64,000 nucleotides of DNA from Malus domestica (taxonomy: Eukaryota > Streptophyta > Magnoliopsida > Rosales > Rosaceae): contig NC_091669.1 of NCBI RefSeq assembly GCF_042453785.1, positions 33,187,001 through 33,251,000 on the forward strand, read 5' to 3'. Numbering within the stretch: position 1 is the first letter of the stretch; the number at the start of each line of letters is the position of its first letter. This document shows positions 1,422 to 13,960 of this stretch, piece by piece. The notes under the pieces were generated by a model. That model worked only from the letters and a program-made list of their open reading frames with translations, did no database searches and had not been told where the DNA came from. The translations under genes and the position numbers were made by a program.

Positions 1422-1426
1422 TATTC
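1422..1426. repeat. Target-site duplication TATTC (left copy)
   Basis: TATTC directly precedes the 5' LTR and recurs at 7176-7180 directly after the 3' LTR. This defines the LTR element boundaries exactly. Confidence 0.92.
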
Positions 1427-1879
1427 TGTTGGATTTATTCCGATGTAAATCAACCTTAAATGATCTACAATATATAATAGGAATGTAATATTGGAGATTA
1501 ATGTAGATATTGTGATTTATTTCCTAAAGATATCAATCTTATATTAGGTGTCTTGTAATACAAGTAAGATTGATGGAGTCCTTGATTTTATGTGATTATG
1601 ATACCTAACTGATAGGCTAAAAAGTGGGATTTGGGATTCCTTTATGGATGGAACCTTAATGCCCTAGCCAGTATAAATACCAAGGTCCCTGCAAACCCTA
1701 GAGACACAACAAACACTTCCCATAAAGTAGTTGTATCCAGCTAGGTGCTTTGTAGAAGACTTTGGTGTTGCCGCATCCTTCATCTTCTTCGTTTGATCTC
1801 CAATGGCTATCGCTTCATGATCAGGTCAGCTAAAATTCCTTCGTTTGTGTTTTAATTATATAACCACATAAAGTTTACA
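1427..1879 (+). repeat. 5' LTR
   Basis: Starts TGTTGG and ends TTTACA, the usual TG...CA form. A TATA-like box (GTATAAATA) lies at 1671-1679. The sequence is nearly identical to 6723-7175. Confidence 0.92.
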
Positions 1880-1881
1880 TG

Positions 1882-1894
1882 TGGTATCAGAGCC
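1882..1894 (+). promoter_or_regulatory. Primer-binding site (initiator tRNA-Met type)
   Basis: TGGTATCAGAGCC lies two bases after the 5' LTR. This is the classic plant Copia minus-strand primer site, complementary to the 3' end of initiator methionine tRNA. Confidence 0.88.
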
Positions 1895-4390
1895 TCTGAT
1901 TATATAATTAAAACCTATTAGGTTTAATATTGGATTACATAATATTCTGCGTGTGTTTAATCCAAGTTGTGATTGCATATGTTTGGCAACACCACCATGC
2001 CGGACCTCCTTGAAAACGGGATCAGTACGTTTCCGCATATAGTTGCATATACTTGGCATATTAATATGATATGCACAGCACATATTTTGCATCAGTTCCT
2101 ATTGTCTTAGAGACCGAAATTATCAGTTAAATAAAACGATTACATAATTGGATATTCTGTTTCTGCGAGTGATGTCTCTTGAGTTCAAGTTTTGCTTCCA
2201 CCGCCACCACCCTTCAAAATTTCAAACCCAAACGTGGGCCTTTATTTTAATTGAAGCGCTTAATGATGATATTGAATTAACTATAAGAAAGAAAGATTGA
2301 AATAGTTAGTTCATTATTTTATTGAATTAGTTTTAATTGGAAGACTTCTTTAGGCTTCCTATTTCAATGTTCATGTTAATGTTTTGGTTCAATTGAAATA
2401 GTCATGTGTTCTAACTTTGCACTGGAGAATTTTTTGAGACGATCAATGAACCCAATGATAGAATCTCATGATCAGAAAGGGTTAGTTAAATATAAAAGAT
2501 CAGAATCAGATGGAGGTCGGTTAAAGAGCGGGTAAAGCCAACAAACCGTGCCGAGGCATAAAGACAACGTCGTCCAACGGAAGACAAGTCATGGACGTCA
2601 CCTCCCAAGCGTCTCAACTCAGCAAACTCGGTAAAGTCCTCTATCAAAGTGAATGGTGTTGATCATTATATATGTCAAGTACGAAACAGTCGATCATACA
2701 TATGGTTAGTTTTGATTATTAAGTTTTGAACTTGATAATTATAACAAAGAGAAAATATATGCTTTGAACATGATAAATTCTTATTTGCATATGAAAAGCC
2801 TACCGAGAAGCATATGTAAATATGCATAAATTATTTTACTTGTTTTTTAGACTATATTATGTCAAAATAGTCTGGGTGTTTCGGCACTAGTACATGAGTA
2901 AGTCTATTGCTCTATTTTTTATGGGTAATATGAATTCATGGAAATATTTTCATTCAGTTGTGTTACATGATAATGTGTAGGAAATATATATAGACCGAAT
3001 GTAATAGCCATGTCATTGGTTGTTGTTGGAAATAATCAATATGGATTAAAATTTTAAGTTTTGCAAACATGTAGTAAAATGACATATGGTATATTTCTTT
3101 TTAAGGGGATTGGATTGTCCTATATTGCTTGAGATGATCCTATGCAAAGACACAAATATATGATAAATCTGGCAGATTAGCATTAATAATGCAGTAAAAT
3201 TATTGTTATGTCCAGAATATATGCACTATGTACTCGTACTTGGGTATGACTGGGGATTAATTCAAGTAATGTTTAATGTCATATTAACTCCATAAGGAAT
3301 CTGCATGACTAACCAAAATTAGTTTTGTCTACAATTTTGCTTTCTTATCTCAGTATAGTCATTTAATTGTACATGACTAGTTAATTATGAAATTGATGCA
3401 TAATTTGTGGATTGACTGAGAATGACATAAAGCATCCAGTGGCAAGAACAAGAACAAGAACATTATACAAATGAATGAGGTATGCAGTAATTATGTGACA
3501 ATTCTCATTTGTATTTTATCTATTTATATGAGAATTATGGTTGGCCATGTGATTATATATATGTTTATAAAGAAGTGGTGAACATATGAAGGCATGCGGT
3601 ATGTATTTCATTCAAAGCATATGACTAAAATTGATAAGCATAAGTTTTCAAACTTGTATATGGTTTGTTAGTTTTTCCTATGCCTAAAGAATTTAAACAA
3701 TGTTTTGATGAGTCAATTTTATGTGCCATAAGGGGAGAAGAAAAGAAATTATTCAAGGCTAATGTATGGCATGTATTGGGGTTTTTTCTTTTGGAAGAAA
3801 AGAATTTTTGGTTGTTCCTTTGCTTAATTTGGTATTTACAAGGCTAATGCACGATTGTGAAGCTAATGTTTTAGGAGTCTTGTACTACAGAAATAAAGGT
3901 ACAAAAGGAAAGGAACTCGTTTGACTTAAGAGAGCATTTAAGTGATATCACAATTTGGCTTTTGAATTAAAAGCGACTATATTGTTTAAAGTGTTTCCAT
4001 TTTGAATCTATTAGCTCCATCATGTTTTCTCATACGTGTTGATATCCTTGTGGTGGAAGATTGATATTATAGCTCTTATACAACTTGATCTATATGTGAT
4101 TAATCTCCTTTCAAGTATGTTGTCAGGTTTTTTGAGATTAATTGGATATCGAAGGGAGTCATGAAGGAAATTATTAAATTAAGGCCATTTGTTGGCAAGA
4201 CTCGAAGCTTGAATCATGTTATCATAATTTTATCACTTACAGCTAATTAATCCATGTGACGTTTGTATTGTTTTAGGCTGGAGATGATCAATGTCTTGTC
4301 AACTAAGCAAGCCGTAGCGGCTTAGTTGATGCTGGGACTATGGTTTTAAGTTACTTTGATCAGCGTTGCATCTTAATTAGAATAAAAGGG

Positions 4391-4595
4391 ATAATCTTCT
4401 TGCCCGTAGGTGTGGATCGTTTCCTTTGTTTTAATTAAGATGGCATAGTATGGGTTTTATTTCACAGGAGTTTGTGAAAACTTCATCTTGCCCGTAGGTG
4501 TTGAAGTTTTTTATGAAGGTAACTCTTGTGACATATAATTCAGTACTAGAAACTAATTAATTTGCTTGCCCGTAGGTGTAAATTAATCTAGTTTC
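4391..4595 (+). repeat. Hairpin triplet 1 with shared 16-nt loop
   Basis: There are three stem-loops. Hairpin 1 (4391-4420) has a weak 7-pair stem. Hairpin 2 (4477-4510) has a perfect 9-bp stem. Hairpin 3 (4549-4595) has about 15 pairs and one bulge. Each encloses exactly 16 nt: TCTTGCCCGTAGGTGT in the first two and GCTTGCCCGTAGGTGT in the third. The stem sequences are unrelated to each other, so the loop is constant while pairing is kept by different bases. They lie inside the coding-free LTR element. Confidence 0.82.
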
Positions 4596-5418
4596 ATGAA
4601 GTTTATTGGGGATAAAGTTCCATGCCATCAGTTACAAAATCCCATTGAGCCCCATAATAGGTTGTGGTTTTAAGGCATGGAAATCGGTTGCATCATAACA
4701 TATTTTGTGTCTATTCATGAGACTTGTTGATGCAAAGTATTGGACCCATGAAGGTTAATCAAGGATTGCTAAGGTACACATTATTTAAGTCTTATGCTTG
4801 TAAATCTTTTCAATTTGAAATATGATGTCATTTTAGATGATGAAATTTGACTACTAGAGTTTCCCTTGGACATCGAAATTGAAATGATATGAAATTGAAT
4901 TGTTATGGATGTATAAATTCATGATAGATGCACATGATTGTTTCTGGCAGATTGCATGTCTTGATTTAAATTGAGTGAATGATACGTCTAATGATCACCA
5001 AACGACCTGAATTTTTTATATGTTCAACATATATATGTCTATTATGTGTCTGCAAATTTTCGTAAATTTTTGCCATGTAGTATAATTATGGTGAATTTAC
5101 TAGTAACCCATACCGTACAGACAGTTTTTCTGGCAGATTGTTTTTTGTTTTTTTTGAGACGTCATTTTAGACAATTAGTTTTACTTAAAATGGCCCTATA
5201 TTTTTATTTTATGAAGATTAGTATGTCTATTTTGATCTGTAAAATTTTGGTAGCAATTAAGCTTGTAAATTAATTATGATAAATTCTAAAGTAAGTGTAA
5301 CTCATTGCTGAAATTCTTTTGATAACTTTATGTTGGTTGTGATGTCTATTTAATTATGTCTAAAATATGAAGAAAATTTGTTTAGGTACATCCTTGAAAG
5401 AATATATGAATGAGTGTT

Positions 5419-5510
5419 TGCCCAAGTGGGAGAATAAGTGAAAGAAAATTGGGCTTCACACTTATTAACTTATTTGCAATAAGTGTATAAACTCTAAAAG
5501 TTTAGAGTTT
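5419..5510 (+). repeat. Palindromic segment with internal purine-tract-like copy
   Basis: A perfect 10-bp inverted repeat with a 2-nt gap lies at 5489-5510. A 9-bp stem with an 11-nt loop lies at 5458-5486. GCCCAA and TTGGGC can pair around 5420 and 5449. AGTGGGAGAAT near 5426 resembles the purine tract before the 3' LTR. It may be an internal priming or structural signal, or chance; no function can be assigned. Confidence 0.45.
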
Positions 5511-6179
5511 TGAGCATTAAGTGGACTAGCATAAAGTGTTATTCTATCTTCCATGAATATGTGTTTTGGTTGATGAAATTAGAATTATGCCATGACTCGA
5601 ATGACAATAATATGTTTAAGTTGCAGAATGAGTACTTGGGGTATGTGTATATTTTTACTTGAAATCATTTGGATGCCTTGATTGATTATTTGTTAATCTT
5701 TAGAAAGAATTTTGAGGCTCGTGGGGACTTAGCGCAAATATGGAATTATTAATGCAAATAGATGGTTGTGAAATGCATGGTTTTGTACAAACAGCGGTGA
5801 ATGTCTTAGTTTTACCTTTCATCGAGATTATGCTATTTAAGGTGTTAAGGAAAGGTTAAAGAAAGACAATTTTGTAGTGATATGCATTCATTGACTAAGT
5901 AAGGGTGTTCCCACAAGCATATTTCAAAAGTATGATTTAAGTAGTGATTTGCAAATTAAGTGACGATGTTGCAAATCAGTGGGAGCTTGAGTTTCATGTA
6001 ATTGATGCCTTACATTTGCAGATGACCTATAAGGTATGTATGGTTGATTGAATCCATTTATTCAGTTTAATCTCTAGTTGGATTCATGTAGTCACATGTT
6101 TATGTGTTGGTCAATTATCAGATGATGATATATCTGATATCCAGTTAAGCAAATTGCATTTTAAGTCATAAAAGGATGG

Positions 6180-6383
6180 TTAATCTTCTTGCTCGTAGGT
6201 GTGGATTAATTCTTTTGGTTCGACTTAAAATGGCATGACATGATTTATATGTTGTATTAGTTGTAAGAGTTTTTTCATCTTGCTCATAAGTGTTGAAAAA
6301 TTCTCTCACGAAAGTAACTAATATGGTATATGAACTAGTGTCAAAAACATGTTAATTCATCTTGCTCGTAGGTGTTGAATTAA
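6180..6383 (+). repeat. Hairpin triplet 2 with shared 16-nt loop
   Basis: There are three more stem-loops: 6180-6209 (7 pairs including one G-T), 6271-6300 (7 pairs) and 6352-6383 (8 pairs). Loops are again 16 nt: TCTTGCTCGTAGGTGT in the first and third, and TCTTGCTCATAAGTGT in the second. Order and spacing match triplet 1 and the flanks are distantly similar, so the triplets are old duplicates 1.79 kb apart. Stem sequences differ from their counterparts, yet pairing is preserved. Confidence 0.82.
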
Positions 6384-6712
6384 TTATGTTTTATGAAGTT
6401 TTTTGTTTGCAACTGCAGTAAAAGTTTGCATGAAAGAGGACCTGAGATGATAAAAGTTGAGACACATTCAGGTAATTAAATTTCATCTTTGCAATCATAA
6501 TTTGACGGTGTTTCATGTGGATGAGGATTTTAGCATGTGTGATTATGAAGGTTTTAGGTTGTGTCAACCTTACAACCTTGTTAGTTCCATGTTAAAAGAC
6601 TTATTTGACAGAAACTTGTATCAAGGATAGGATGTTATCACAACTACATGGCCATTAAAGTGACATTAATCTCCAATTTCAAGTATAAACATAAATATTA
6701 TATGTGTAGACC

Positions 6713-6722
6713 AGTGGGAGAA
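6713..6722 (+). promoter_or_regulatory. Polypurine tract before 3' LTR
   Basis: The purine-rich AGTGGGAGAA ends directly at the 3' LTR, as expected for the plus-strand priming site of an LTR element. Confidence 0.75.
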
Positions 6723-7175
6723 TGTTGGATTTATTCCGATGTAAATCAACCTTAAATGATCTACAATATATAATAGGAATGTAATATTGGAGATTAATGT
6801 AGATATTGTGATTTATTTCCTAAAGATATCAATCTTATATTAGGTGTCTTGTAATACAAGTAAGATTGATGGAGTCCTTGATTTTATGTGATTATGATAC
6901 CTAACTGATAGGCTAAAAAGTGGGATTTGGGATTCCTTTATGGATGGAACCTTAATGCCCTAGCCAGTATAAATACCAAGGTCCCTGCAAACCCTAGAGA
7001 CACAACAAACACTTCCCATAAAGTAGTTGTATCCAGCTAGGTGCTTTGTAGAAGACTTTGGTGTTGCCGCATCCTTCATCTTCTTCGTTTGATCTCCAAT
7101 GGCTATCGCTTCATGATCAGGTCAGCTAAAATTCCTTCATTTGTGTTTTAATTATATAACCACATAAAGTTTACA
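6723..7175 (+). repeat. 3' LTR
   Basis: This is a 453-bp copy of the 5' LTR with one base difference. It is followed by the TATTC target duplication at 7176-7180. Confidence 0.92.
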
Positions 7176-7340
7176 TATTCTTGAATCGGTTACGATAACA
7201 ATCGTATTATGTAAATCCAATAGAATATTAGTAGTTCCGTGTTCTCGTAGAAGGCCTAAAAGAGTTTGAAAATCCTTCTCTGAATCATTAGCTATGGTGA
7301 TTACTTGTGTCGAAGTTTCTTTTTCTTTTTGCGCTCCACT
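7176..7340 (-). pseudogene. Host coding exon, 5' portion, interrupted by LTR element
   Basis: Read on the minus strand, a pyrimidine tract and AG (7341-7342) form a good splice acceptor. An open frame of 55 codons then runs to the insertion point. It includes the motif IANDSEKDFQTLL and then a leucine-rich, glycine-turn segment, weakly reminiscent of an NYN/PIN-like nuclease fold. The frame joins 1421-1146 exactly when the LTR element and one TATTC are removed. The plus-strand bases looked organellar at first, but the frame continuity argues for a nuclear exon. No upstream exon was found. Confidence 0.6.
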
Positions 7341-10766: not shown

Positions 10767-12160
10767 GTGTTCAGAGACTGCCATGGAAATAAAAATATAC
10801 AGAAGGTGAACTATGTAAACCAGGTTGAAGAAACTGGTACCCTGTTCTATGCATGTAATGCTATGACAAATGTGAAGGTGAATCACTCATGGTACATTGA
10901 TAGTGGTTGTAGTAACCACATGACAGGTGATGAAAGGTTACTAATCAACATTCAAAGGAATCTGACTTCCAGGGTGAAGATGGGAACTGGAGAAATTGTT
11001 CAGGTTGCAGGAAAGGGGACTCTTGTGATAGAGACCAAATTGGGAAGAAAGCACATTCAAGAAGTGATGCTTGTTCCTGGACTTGAAGAGAATCTGCTAA
11101 GTGTTGGACAGATGATGGAACACGGGTACTATCTAGTGTTTGGAGGAAATGTGGTGAATATCTTCGATGGTTGGTCACTGGATAATCTTGTTGTTAGAGT
11201 GCAGATGACAAGGTGTTTTCCTCTTACAATGATGCCCGCAAATCAGTTAGCCTTGAAAGCAAGTGTGACACACTGTATGCAGATATGGCATAAGCGTTTA
11301 GGGCATCTAAATAACAGAAGCATCAAAATGCTTGAAGATCAAGAAATGGTTCATGGATTGCCTCATTTGGAGAAAACCTCTATTATGTGTGAAGGTTGCA
11401 TGCTAGGAAAGCAACACAGAGAGTATTTTCCATCAAAATCGGCTTGGATAGCTAAACTTCCATTGGAATTGGTTCACACAGATATCTGTGGACCAATGCA
11501 AACTGAATCTATCTCTGGAAATAAGTACTTTCTGCTGTTCACTGATGATTGTACTAGGATGTCATGGGTATATTTTCTCAGGAACAAGTCAAGTGCATTT
11601 GATTGTTTCAAGAAGTTTAAAGCAATGACAGAGTTGCAGTGTGGATATAAAGTGAAATGTCTAATGAGTGATCGGGGTGGAGAGTTCTTATCAACCGAAT
11701 TTGACAATTACTGCAATGAACTTGGAATTCAGAGGCAATTAACCATGGCATATTCTCCTCAACAGAATGGAGTAGCTAAGAGAAATAATAGGACTGCGGT
11801 GGAAATGGCAAAGTCTATGATGCATGAAAATGGTCTTTCTTATGCATTTTGGGCAGAGGTTGTGAACACTGCAGTCTACATACTTAATAGATGTCCCTCA
11901 AAGTCTCCTAAGAAGATAACTCCATTTGAAACATACACTGGTAGAAAACCAGGTATTGCACATTTGAAGATTTTTGGGTCACTATGCTATGTGCACATTC
12001 CTTCAACACTAAGGCATAAGCTTGAAGAAAATAGTTGCAAATGTATTTTTGTAGGCTATGGAATCTGTGAAAAGGGGTACAGGGTGTTTGATCCGAGTTC
12101 CAATAAGATCATCCTGTCTAGAGATGTACTCTTTGATAAGAATGCCTCATGGGAGTGGAG
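10767..12160 (+). pseudogene. Copia protease and integrase
   Basis: Same frame as gag. The protease active site WYIDSG lies near 10890-10905. The integrase zinc-binding HHCC part follows (HKRLGHL and CEGCMLGK, about 11290-11410). The integrase core has aspartates in TDDCTR and SDRGGEF. The third catalytic position, usually glutamate in NGVAERKN, reads NGVAKRNN here (about 11770-11790), a Glu-to-Lys change that should abolish activity. A frameshift near 12155-12165 moves the rest of the polyprotein to another frame. Confidence 0.85.
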
Positions 12161-13960
12161 AATACTGATAAGAGTAAAATACATGTCCCCATGTTTGTTG
12201 AGAATCAAATGGCAGATTGTAATGAAGGACAGAAGCAAGTGGAAGTATGTGAACCAAGTCAACTCTTGGATGCATCAACTCAAGTGGAGGATGTTATTAC
12301 ACCACTAAGTGAGAATGTTTTTGAAAGCTCTCAAACAACTAACCACACACCACAGAAATGGAAAAGTGTTAATGAGATCATGGCTCAGTGTAACATGTGC
12401 ATTGTAGAACCTGAAAACTATGAAGAAGCTATTCTAGATGAGTCATGGAAAAATGCAATGAAATCTGAGCTTGAAATGATTGAGAATAATAACACATGGG
12501 AGCTAGTTGACAGACCATTTGACAAGCCAATCATTGGTGTTAAGTGGGTCTATAAAACCAAGCTGAACCTTGATGGATCCGTACAGAAGAACAAGGCCAG
12601 ACTGGTGGCAAAAGGCTATTCCCAAAAGCCTGGGATAGACTACAATGAAACATTCGCTCCAGTTGCAAGATTGGATACTATTAGGACCTTGATAACACTT
12701 GCTGCACAGAAGGAATGGAATCTATATCAGTTGGATGTAAAGTCTCTTTTCTGAATGGAGCTTTGAAAGAGGAGGTTTATGTTGAGCAGCCACAAGGTTT
12801 CGTGAAAGAGAGTGAAGAAACCAAGGTCTTTAAGTTGAACAAGGCTCTGTATGGGTTGAAGCAAGCTCTAAGAGCCTGGTATGATGAAATAGATTCCTAT
12901 TTTAGCAAGGCAGGTTTCAAGAAAAGCTCTAGTGAAGCAACACTTTATGTTAAAACTAGTGAAGCTACAGGTATCATTATAGTTTCACTCTATGTGGATG
13001 ATATTGTATATACTGGAAGCTGTCCAAAACTACTTGAAGAGTTCAAGAATGACATGATGCAGCATTATGAGATGACTGATCTGGGGTTACTTCATCATTT
13101 TCTTGGCATGGGAGTAGTACAAACAGATAAAAACATTTTTATCCACCAGAGGAAATATGCAATGAAGCTTATTGAGAAATTTGGGATGAAAGATTGCAAA
13201 TCAGTGGCAACACCACTAGCTGTGAATGAGAAGTTATGCAAGACAGATGGTAGTGAAGTAGCAAATGAAAGTGAATATAGACAAGTTGTAGGTAGCTTGT
13301 TATACTTGACTGCTACAAAGCCGGATATAATGTTTGCTTCTAGCTTACTTGCTAGATTCATGCATAACCCCACAAAGAAACACATGGGAATAGCCAAAAG
13401 AGTGTTGAGATATATTCAGGGCACTCTTGATTTTGGAATTGAATTTGTGAAAAGGAAGACAACTACTCTAATAGGGTATTGTGACAGTGACTGGGCAGGA
13501 AGTGAGGATGACATGAGAAGAACTTCAGGATATGCATTTACATTAAGATTCGGTATGTTTTCATGGGCATCAATCAAACAAAACACAGTGGCATTGTCCA
13601 CTGCAGAAGCAGAATATGTCAGTACTGCAGAAGCAACATCACAGGCTAAATGGCTAAGGTTTATGCTTGAAGATTTTGGAGATGAGCAAGTGGAAGGCAC
13701 ACCAATCATGTGATAACACTTCTGCCATAGCAATGGCAAAGAATCCAGTTCTTCACCAGAGAACTAGGCACATCAATCGGAAATTTCATTTCATCAGGGA
13801 AGCTATCCAAGCAAAGGAGATTGAACTTGTTTACTGCAAAACAGAAGACCAGATTGCAGATATACTAACCAAGGCTCTGTCAAATGATCAATTTGTTTAC
13901 CTAAGAGATCTACTTGGTGTGAAATCAGCTAAAGGGTTAGAAGGGAGTGTTGATGTGTAA
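12149..13960 (+). pseudogene. Copia reverse transcriptase and RNase H, frameshifted
   Basis: The reverse transcriptase opens with WKNAMKSEL and GVKWVYKTK (about 12450-12560), continues past a frameshift near 12745 (around QLDVKS), and has the YVDD active site at 12991-13002. RNase H motifs (DSDWAGS, and the STAEAEY region) lie at about 13480-13620. A third frameshift near 13700 separates the C-terminal part (DNTSAIAMAKNP through ADILTKAL). All domains of a Copia pol are present but cannot be made as one protein. Confidence 0.88.

Follow-up and report, generated by a model that had tools for sequence, protein, structure and literature searches.

The window analysed here is a stretch of 64,000 nt from Malus domestica (C9:33187001-33251000), and searches for related sequences covered 651 Mb of the genome in 19 contigs. 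An LTR element that is non-coding lies at 1427-7175 of the window and carries six hairpins in two blocks of three, which we call triplets A and B. The designations C and D refer to types of coding element that are described below. The features are as follows.

1422..1426 (left copy) and 7176-7180 (right copy), + strand: target site duplication (TSD), TATTC
1427..1879, + strand: 5′ LTR, 453 bp, with 1 mismatch relative to the 3′ LTR
1882..1894, + strand: primer binding site (PBS), TGGTATCAGAGCC
4367..4445, + strand: hairpin 1, triplet A (D-type); inner 34 nt 4389-4422, loop core 4399-4413
4463..4530, + strand: hairpin 2, triplet A; inner 34 nt 4477-4510, loop core 4487-4501
4549..4595, + strand: hairpin 3, triplet A; inner 34 nt 4555-4588, loop core 4565-4579
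6157..6232, + strand: hairpin 4, first of triplet B (C-type); inner 34 nt 6178-6211, loop core 6188-6202
6254..6324, + strand: hairpin 5, second of triplet B; inner 34 nt 6269-6302, loop core 6279-6293
6341..6396, + strand: hairpin 6, third of triplet B; inner 34 nt 6351-6384, loop core 6361-6375
6712..6722, + strand: polypurine tract (PPT), CAGTGGGAGAA, preceding the 3′ LTR
6723..7175, + strand: 3′ LTR, 453 bp

We take the PBS sequence TGGTATCAGAGCC to be a match to initiator tRNA-Met. The initial annotation described the element as young and devoid of proteins of its own, and both statements hold. The LTR pair of the window copy differs at 1 position in 453 bp. TSDs of 5 bp flank all eight copies checked (the window and L002-L008), in which the LTRs differ by 1, 0, 0, 0, 1, 0, 14 and 21 mismatches respectively, so the family has been mobile very recently. 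The longest stop-to-stop frame within the element is 92 aa, and five of its ORFs gave nothing above the Pfam cut-off. A tblastn search of the window with Copia reverse transcriptase and integrase pieces found matches at 11271-13894 (+) alone, outside the hairpin element, and none within it. The presence of coding remnants is not supported.

Large retrotransposon derivatives (LARDs) are mobile elements with two LTRs, a PBS, a PPT and a long non-coding internal domain. The window element resembles them in its mobility, its near-identical LTRs, TSD, PBS and PPT, and its long non-coding interior that lacks gag and pol. It differs in possessing a defined hairpin element, present twice, that is common to coding relatives in the same genome.

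A search with the LTR gave 337 candidates, of which 40 places were scored and ten that appeared unpaired were opened. Three of these are solo LTRs with clear TSDs (L032, L033 and L038) and one is nearly so (L034); single LTR ends lie beside a PBS or PPT at L031, L036, L037 and L040, and two of the ten places are ambiguous. L037 was the one place of the ten that was traced further, and no helper was reached from any of them. L037/L041 was discarded as a helper because its similarity extends over ~117 nt and is followed by antisense Copia. Among 94 windows of 120 nt, the lowest + strand folding z scores are found in the LTR and around the PBS (about 1667-1966 and 6947-7066; z = -5.35, -4.53 and -4.08), with the hairpin blocks no lower than -3.84.

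The loop motif CTTGC[CT]C[AG]TA[AG]GTGT begins at 4399, 4487, 4565, 6188, 6279 and 6361. The initial annotation proposed six hairpins with one constant 16-nt loop. The loop is indeed shared, but it is not open; it is itself folded. Within the 15-nt core C1 pairs with G14, and beyond a UU bulge the pairs G4-U13, C5-G12 and Y6-R11 form a mini-stem that is capped by a YRYA tetraloop. The stems pair as was proposed, but the hairpins are longer, with outer stems extending from 4367-4445 for the first to 6341-6396 for the last. When the loop is taken as 16 nt, five hairpins have unbroken inner stems of 10, 8, 9, 7 and 9 bp. Hairpin 1 has no unbroken stem of at least 5 pairs at any offset tested; six of its seven innermost positions pair, and its long outer stem has a folding energy of -30.2 kcal/mol (z = -4.55, with 0/200 shuffles as stable). 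The z scores of hairpins 2-6 are -2.74, -3.33, -1.71, -1.89 and -3.33, so that two of them are not strikingly stable alone.

A covariance model built on 52 sequences, the six of the window among them, scores these six hairpins at 45.4-51.4 bits and the next best place in the window at 15.8 bits. The loop pattern CTTGCYYRYARGTGT matches 475 times across the genome and its reverse 8 times. The two blocks are homologous as triplets (a score of 67 with the loops masked, against at most 36 in 200 shuffles), so the six hairpins are not independent. Neither the whole window nor 4300-6450 contains an Rfam family at its gathering score. The best hit, 19.3 bits against a cut-off of 56, is far too low for a microRNA precursor or other known RNA family, and the earlier suggestion that the hairpins mimic a host RNA ligand finds no support.

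A DNA search with 4391-6383 returned at least 65 matches (198 candidates, 40 scored), falling mainly into two groups, subfamily A being 90-100% alike and subfamily B about 80%. We examined 28 copies, comprising the window and L002-L008 (A) and L009-L028 (B). These contain 148 loops, six in each A copy and five in each B copy; none of the 20 B copies read yielded hairpin 4. Loop positions 1-5, 10 and 12-15 are each identical in at least 147 of the 148 loops. Positions 6 and 11 are C-G in 94, U-A in 30, U-G in 16 and unpaired in 8. The tetraloop is YRYA in 147/148, and its third base is U in all 48 A loops and C in 93 of the 100 B loops. Single old copies have private loop changes, as expected after insertion. 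Two pairs of close B neighbours are inverted, namely L017 (C10:2206621-2208332, -) with L012 (C10:2211621-2213331, +), and C3:5909122-5910961 (+) with C3:5913489-5915292 (-); these could be due to chance, nested insertion or inverted duplication.

The arms pair with their own partners. In the six window hairpins 40 of 42 positions are paired, where the mean on permuting arms is 26.0 and 1/720 permutations is as good. Taking 11 hairpin classes, each represented by its commonest arm pair, 73 of 77 positions are paired compared with 46.1 when the arms are shuffled (0/50000 shuffles), which confirms that the stems differ in sequence yet pair. For 52 distinct hairpins 92.8% of cells are paired against 72.5 on shuffling, with a covariation score of 0.554 against 0.214 (0/500 for each). 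Double-changed pairs (9/13) and pair types were not above shuffles in this set (309/500 and 389/500), nor in a further shuffle test (443/500 and 477/500). Hairpin cells contain 69 G-U and 17 A-C combinations. This excess indicates that the structure belongs to the sense-strand RNA and not to DNA, and speaks against a DNA cruciform or an antisense RNA.

Comparison between orthologous blocks is less decisive. With structures derived from the alignments, the number of paired cells was reached in 0/400 draws of a tree-based null in all three alignments, and double changes in 188/400 (block A), 1/400 and 0/400. When the fold of the window only was imposed on the orthologs, the count of paired cells was not significant, being equalled or exceeded in 58/500 and 141/500 draws of the null, and double changes were matched in 79/500 and 7/500 draws. 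Two chance loop-like matches, in L020 and L022, were excluded as rows, and L020 was left out of alignment A2 owing to an insertion. Stems vary little inside orthologous blocks. Variation in the first block is lower in paired (0.038) than in unpaired columns (0.150); the values for the second block are 0.089 and 0.113. Covariation within orthologs is thus weak, and the main structural evidence is the comparison among hairpins rather than among orthologs. The compensatory stems of the initial annotation are strongly supported by the arm shuffles, supported by the tree-based null with alignment-derived structures, and mostly not supported by the window-only fold on orthologs.

We considered whether the hairpins are a functionless by-product of tandem duplication. 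The homology of the two triplets, the low variation of stems in orthologous blocks and the insignificance of the window-only fold would be in keeping with this. Against it stand the cognate pairing among divergent stems, the excess of G-U over A-C, and a geometry of the triplet that is constant in the leaders of ten coding elements (below). We regard such an origin as most improbable.

Between subfamilies A and B, ten loop positions differ at 0/50, the five others at 16/25, the inner stems at 10/84 and the rest of the blocks at 36/229. Because both classes of loop position were chosen from these very loops, the contrast of 0/50 with 16/25 is partly built in. The whole loop (16/75) does not differ from its surroundings (36/229; P = 0.29), and the inner stems are no slower. 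Between A and B the signal of selection is only the pattern of change inside the loop. The 16/25 differences lie in the tetraloop and its closing pair, and are identical across three loops; in the first block all three loops have CGU in A and UAC in B, on three unrelated stems. As gene conversion over 15 nt between stems of this kind is unlikely, a shared reader acting in trans would be the simplest account of this joint change. The hairpin blocks are not a conserved island, since 100-nt windows over 3300-6700 are 76-98% alike between the subfamilies (five B copies). In the same five copies the non-coding regions 3301-3600 and 4701-5500 are 0.87-0.98 alike (0.81-0.86 for 5101-5200), more so than the 3′ LTR (0.76-0.85, windows from 6801), and other selected RNA features may be located there.

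The triplet is also found in coding elements. From about 100 listed (contigs C1-C4) of the 475 pattern matches, 15 places were picked. Seven match the element (L048-L051, L053, L057 and L062), L061 matches the covariance model only (28.4 bits), and seven look like chance matches to the motif (L052, L054-L056 and L058-L060, L056 and L059 being mutual copies). L050 and L051 are divergent non-coding copies in which hairpin 5 has a single-base bulge. In L048 and L049 the triplet lies behind an LTR and PBS and ahead of gag. Their LTR pairs are 99.8% and 100% identical, the gag match lies in an open frame of 1401 aa (L048) or 367 aa (L049), and the pol frames downstream are 1111 and 1063 aa from stop to stop. 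Both gag sequences belong to PF14223, and the pol pieces downstream of L048 (L063) contain gag_pre-integrs, rve and RVT_2. Both L048 and L049 are coding Copia elements, probably autonomous, and in both the triplet is flanked by the PBS and gag.

A further 20 leaders were selected by gag and not by loop, from at least 154 gag matches (1889 candidates, 150 scored) and spanning 51-99% identity. Ten of the 20 contain the triplet, making 12 of the 22 leaders read when L048 and L049 are included. Measured back from the end of the leader stretch, which falls within about 10 nt of the gag match, the loops in these ten lie at 258-273, 170-181 and 92-101 nt, or about 265, 175 and 95 nt ahead of gag. Leaders with the triplet are L065-L071 (C type, gag 79-99%) and L072-L074 (D type, gag 70-71%), and those that lack it are L075 (gag 69%) and L076-L084 (gag 51-61%); among the 22 leaders it is thus limited to elements with gag at least 70% alike. 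An adjoining PBS was seen in L048, L049 and L070. In L075-L084 no loop word is common to hairpins beyond the best of 10 shuffles, by a crude test that also misses L070 and L071 and is marginal or equal for L074. On this basis the triplet is not supported as a general feature of Copia leaders. In L064 a frame at about 5170-5715 (+), past the 3′ LTR of the D element, is one that we take to resemble the TIR domain of plant resistance genes.

All 24 loops in eight of the ten leaders fit the motif exactly. L070 and L071 lack one base of the UU bulge in all three hairpins, another joint change within a triplet; here the covariance model finds parts of the triplet only (25.3 and 14.9 bits; 26.8 and 15.0 bits), and the assignment rests on the loop pattern with 2-3 mismatches. 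The tetraloop is CACA in 17 of 18 hairpins of six C1 copies (CAUA in 1) and CGUA in all 12 hairpins of four D copies. Two C2 copies have CAUA in 3, UAUA in 2 and CCUA in 1, the last departing from YRYA. When 21 hairpins from seven of the 12 coding copies were tested alone, 148 of 168 positions were paired compared with 96.6 on shuffling (0/20000); beforehand the missing bulge base of the C2 hairpins, which MAFFT had put at the left end, was re-registered by script.

The two triplets of the non-coding element have different ancestries. A tree of 32 triplets with loops removed, from 10 of the 28 non-coding and all 12 coding copies, separates triplet A plus D from triplet B plus C (99/99, unrooted); triplet A of both subfamilies groups with D, and triplet B of both with C. 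The 3′ end (6421-7064) and the first 342 nt of the LTR each match C at 72%. The LTR end plus PBS match D at 81% over 73 nt, and this is ambiguous on closer look, so that assigning each subfamily a single helper by this segment was dropped. The split of the tree suggests that the non-coding element is chimeric, combining two leader elements but no gag. Less simply, C and D may each have lost one triplet from an ancestor that had both. The element shares triplets, the type of PBS and PPT, and a C-like 3′ end with coding relatives, but the coding leaders are only 63-71% alike to the triplets of the window. Its actual helper could be a copy outside those read, or one since lost. The tetraloop UACA of triplet A in subfamily B was found in no coding copy read.

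The distance to the coding elements provides a measure of constancy in which the positions are chosen independently of the non-coding copies. Eleven loop positions are invariant in 30 C1 and D coding loops, and changes were counted over four triplet pairs between two non-coding and two coding copies. These positions changed at 3/121, compared with 285/830 outside the loops in the triplet (P = 2e-16), and the remaining loop positions at 24/44. For the whole loop the value is 27/165 (P = 2e-6 against the same 285/830), so relative to the coding elements the loop has not been lost at the neutral rate. The loop scaffold was thus kept although roughly one-third of the remaining triplet positions changed, and the remainder of the tetraloop changed faster than the sequence around it.

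On balance we favour the view that the triplet is a cis-acting 5′ leader element of one Copia clade, most likely a packaging signal (psi), and that the non-coding element parasitizes its coding relatives as helpers. Coding and non-coding members share the triplet while there is no gene to translate in the latter, which suggests that the shared need is for a cis signal in the genomic RNA. Since the three tandem hairpins display the same bulge and YRYA-type tetraloop, one RNA could be bound by several molecules of Gag, and the RNA of the protein-less element could be packed by the Gag of its coding relatives via the triplet. Packaging by Gag would account for where the triplet lies in the leader, for its repeated hairpins, for the unchanging scaffold and for the way the tetraloops drift together. 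The position between PBS and gag in coding members and the conserved RNA structure, weak when the window-only fold is applied to orthologs, are those of a psi element. A point against packaging is the distance of 2.5 and 4.3 kb between the PBS and the hairpins of the non-coding element, unlike the arrangement in the coding leaders. The initial annotation proposed a structure that is read through its loop by a factor in trans, and listed several functions; the selected RNA structure and constant loop are supported and packaging fits best of the candidates, with Gag the probable reader.

The third loop lies about 92-101 nt before gag with constant spacing, and the triplet could instead control translation or ribosome entry at the gag start codon, surviving as a relic in the non-coding element. 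That the whole loop and inner stem are no slower than their surroundings between the non-coding subfamilies would agree with a relic. The non-coding element has nothing to translate, however, and yet its helper-constant loop positions have changed so little (the 3/121 above); moreover it carries two triplets and was very recently mobile. We think a role in translation quite unlikely.

A trans reader of the constant loop could equally be a host RNA-binding protein, rather than Gag, with a role in export, RNA stability or the evasion of silencing. If such a protein were conserved, one would expect the loop to stay constant, so the fast change of the tetraloop, in concert within lineages, counts against this, as does the restriction of the motif to elements with gag at least 70% alike in the 22 leaders. 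This reading we consider unlikely. Contacts between RNA molecules are very unlikely in our view. Dimer signals occur in the leaders of retroelements, and tandem exposed loops might serve in genome dimerization or pair elsewhere in the element. The loops, however, are not palindromic as read from the sequence, and complements of at least 8 pairs to three subfamily A loops number 18, 21 and 11 in the element against 22.4, 27.7 and 16.0 in shuffled sequence. Pairing of these loops to the element is thus not supported, their complements being no commoner than in shuffles.

Returning to packaging, the element carries a D-related triplet (4367-4595) and a C-related triplet (6157-6396), with a C-like 3′ end and a mostly C-like LTR, and the two triplets might let its RNA use two helpers or compete better. 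A more elaborate scheme is possible but doubtful. The fixed bulge scaffold would bear a specificity code in the tetraloop that co-evolves with Gag, and a two-key parasite would have fused the C and D signals and re-coded the loops of one subfamily jointly, thereby exploiting either helper or outbidding both.

To our knowledge, how plant LTR retrotransposons choose RNA for packaging, and why protein-less elements are so common in plant genomes, are poorly known. The parasite and its coding relatives have in common a 15-nt core with three to six copies per RNA and defined tetraloop variation. Such a compact motif allows the packaging question to be put to a direct test using a single Gag protein and short RNAs, and provides a sequence handle for parasite-helper pairs in Rosaceae genomes. 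The open-licence literature, screened by title and start of abstract, yielded no description of these hairpins. If our reading is correct, the triplet would be a plant Copia packaging signal with a defined structure, and of a type undescribed as far as literature searches show.

The psi stem-loops of retroviruses are structured RNA near the 5′ end that is thought to be read by Gag. The coat-protein operator of MS2-type phages comprises a stem, a bulge, a short stem and a tetraloop ending in pyrimidine-A; the likeness to our hairpins is an analogy only, there being no sequence relation and a different life cycle. For Ty1, the part of the source consulted (PMC8396678) describes a pseudoknot and places the proposed packaging region at +230-580. 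The triplet is like the retroviral psi and this region in being structured RNA near the 5′ end with Gag as the putative reader, and unlike them, so far as the Ty1 excerpt goes, in having three tandem hairpins with one constant loop. Retrozymes are plant non-autonomous retrotransposons with hammerhead ribozymes (PMC4918200). The present element is likewise non-autonomous with an RNA fold, but has no Rfam family at the cut-off. According to the sections of PMC3735527 consulted, BARE2 of barley is a Copia element that cannot make Gag, rides on BARE1 and is packaged in particles, and conserved dimerization and packaging signals are cited there. The window element is similarly a Copia relative without Gag. 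BARE2 keeps further coding sequence, where none was found in the window element, and those sections describe no hairpins with a repeated loop, whereas the window element has two triplets of different ancestry.
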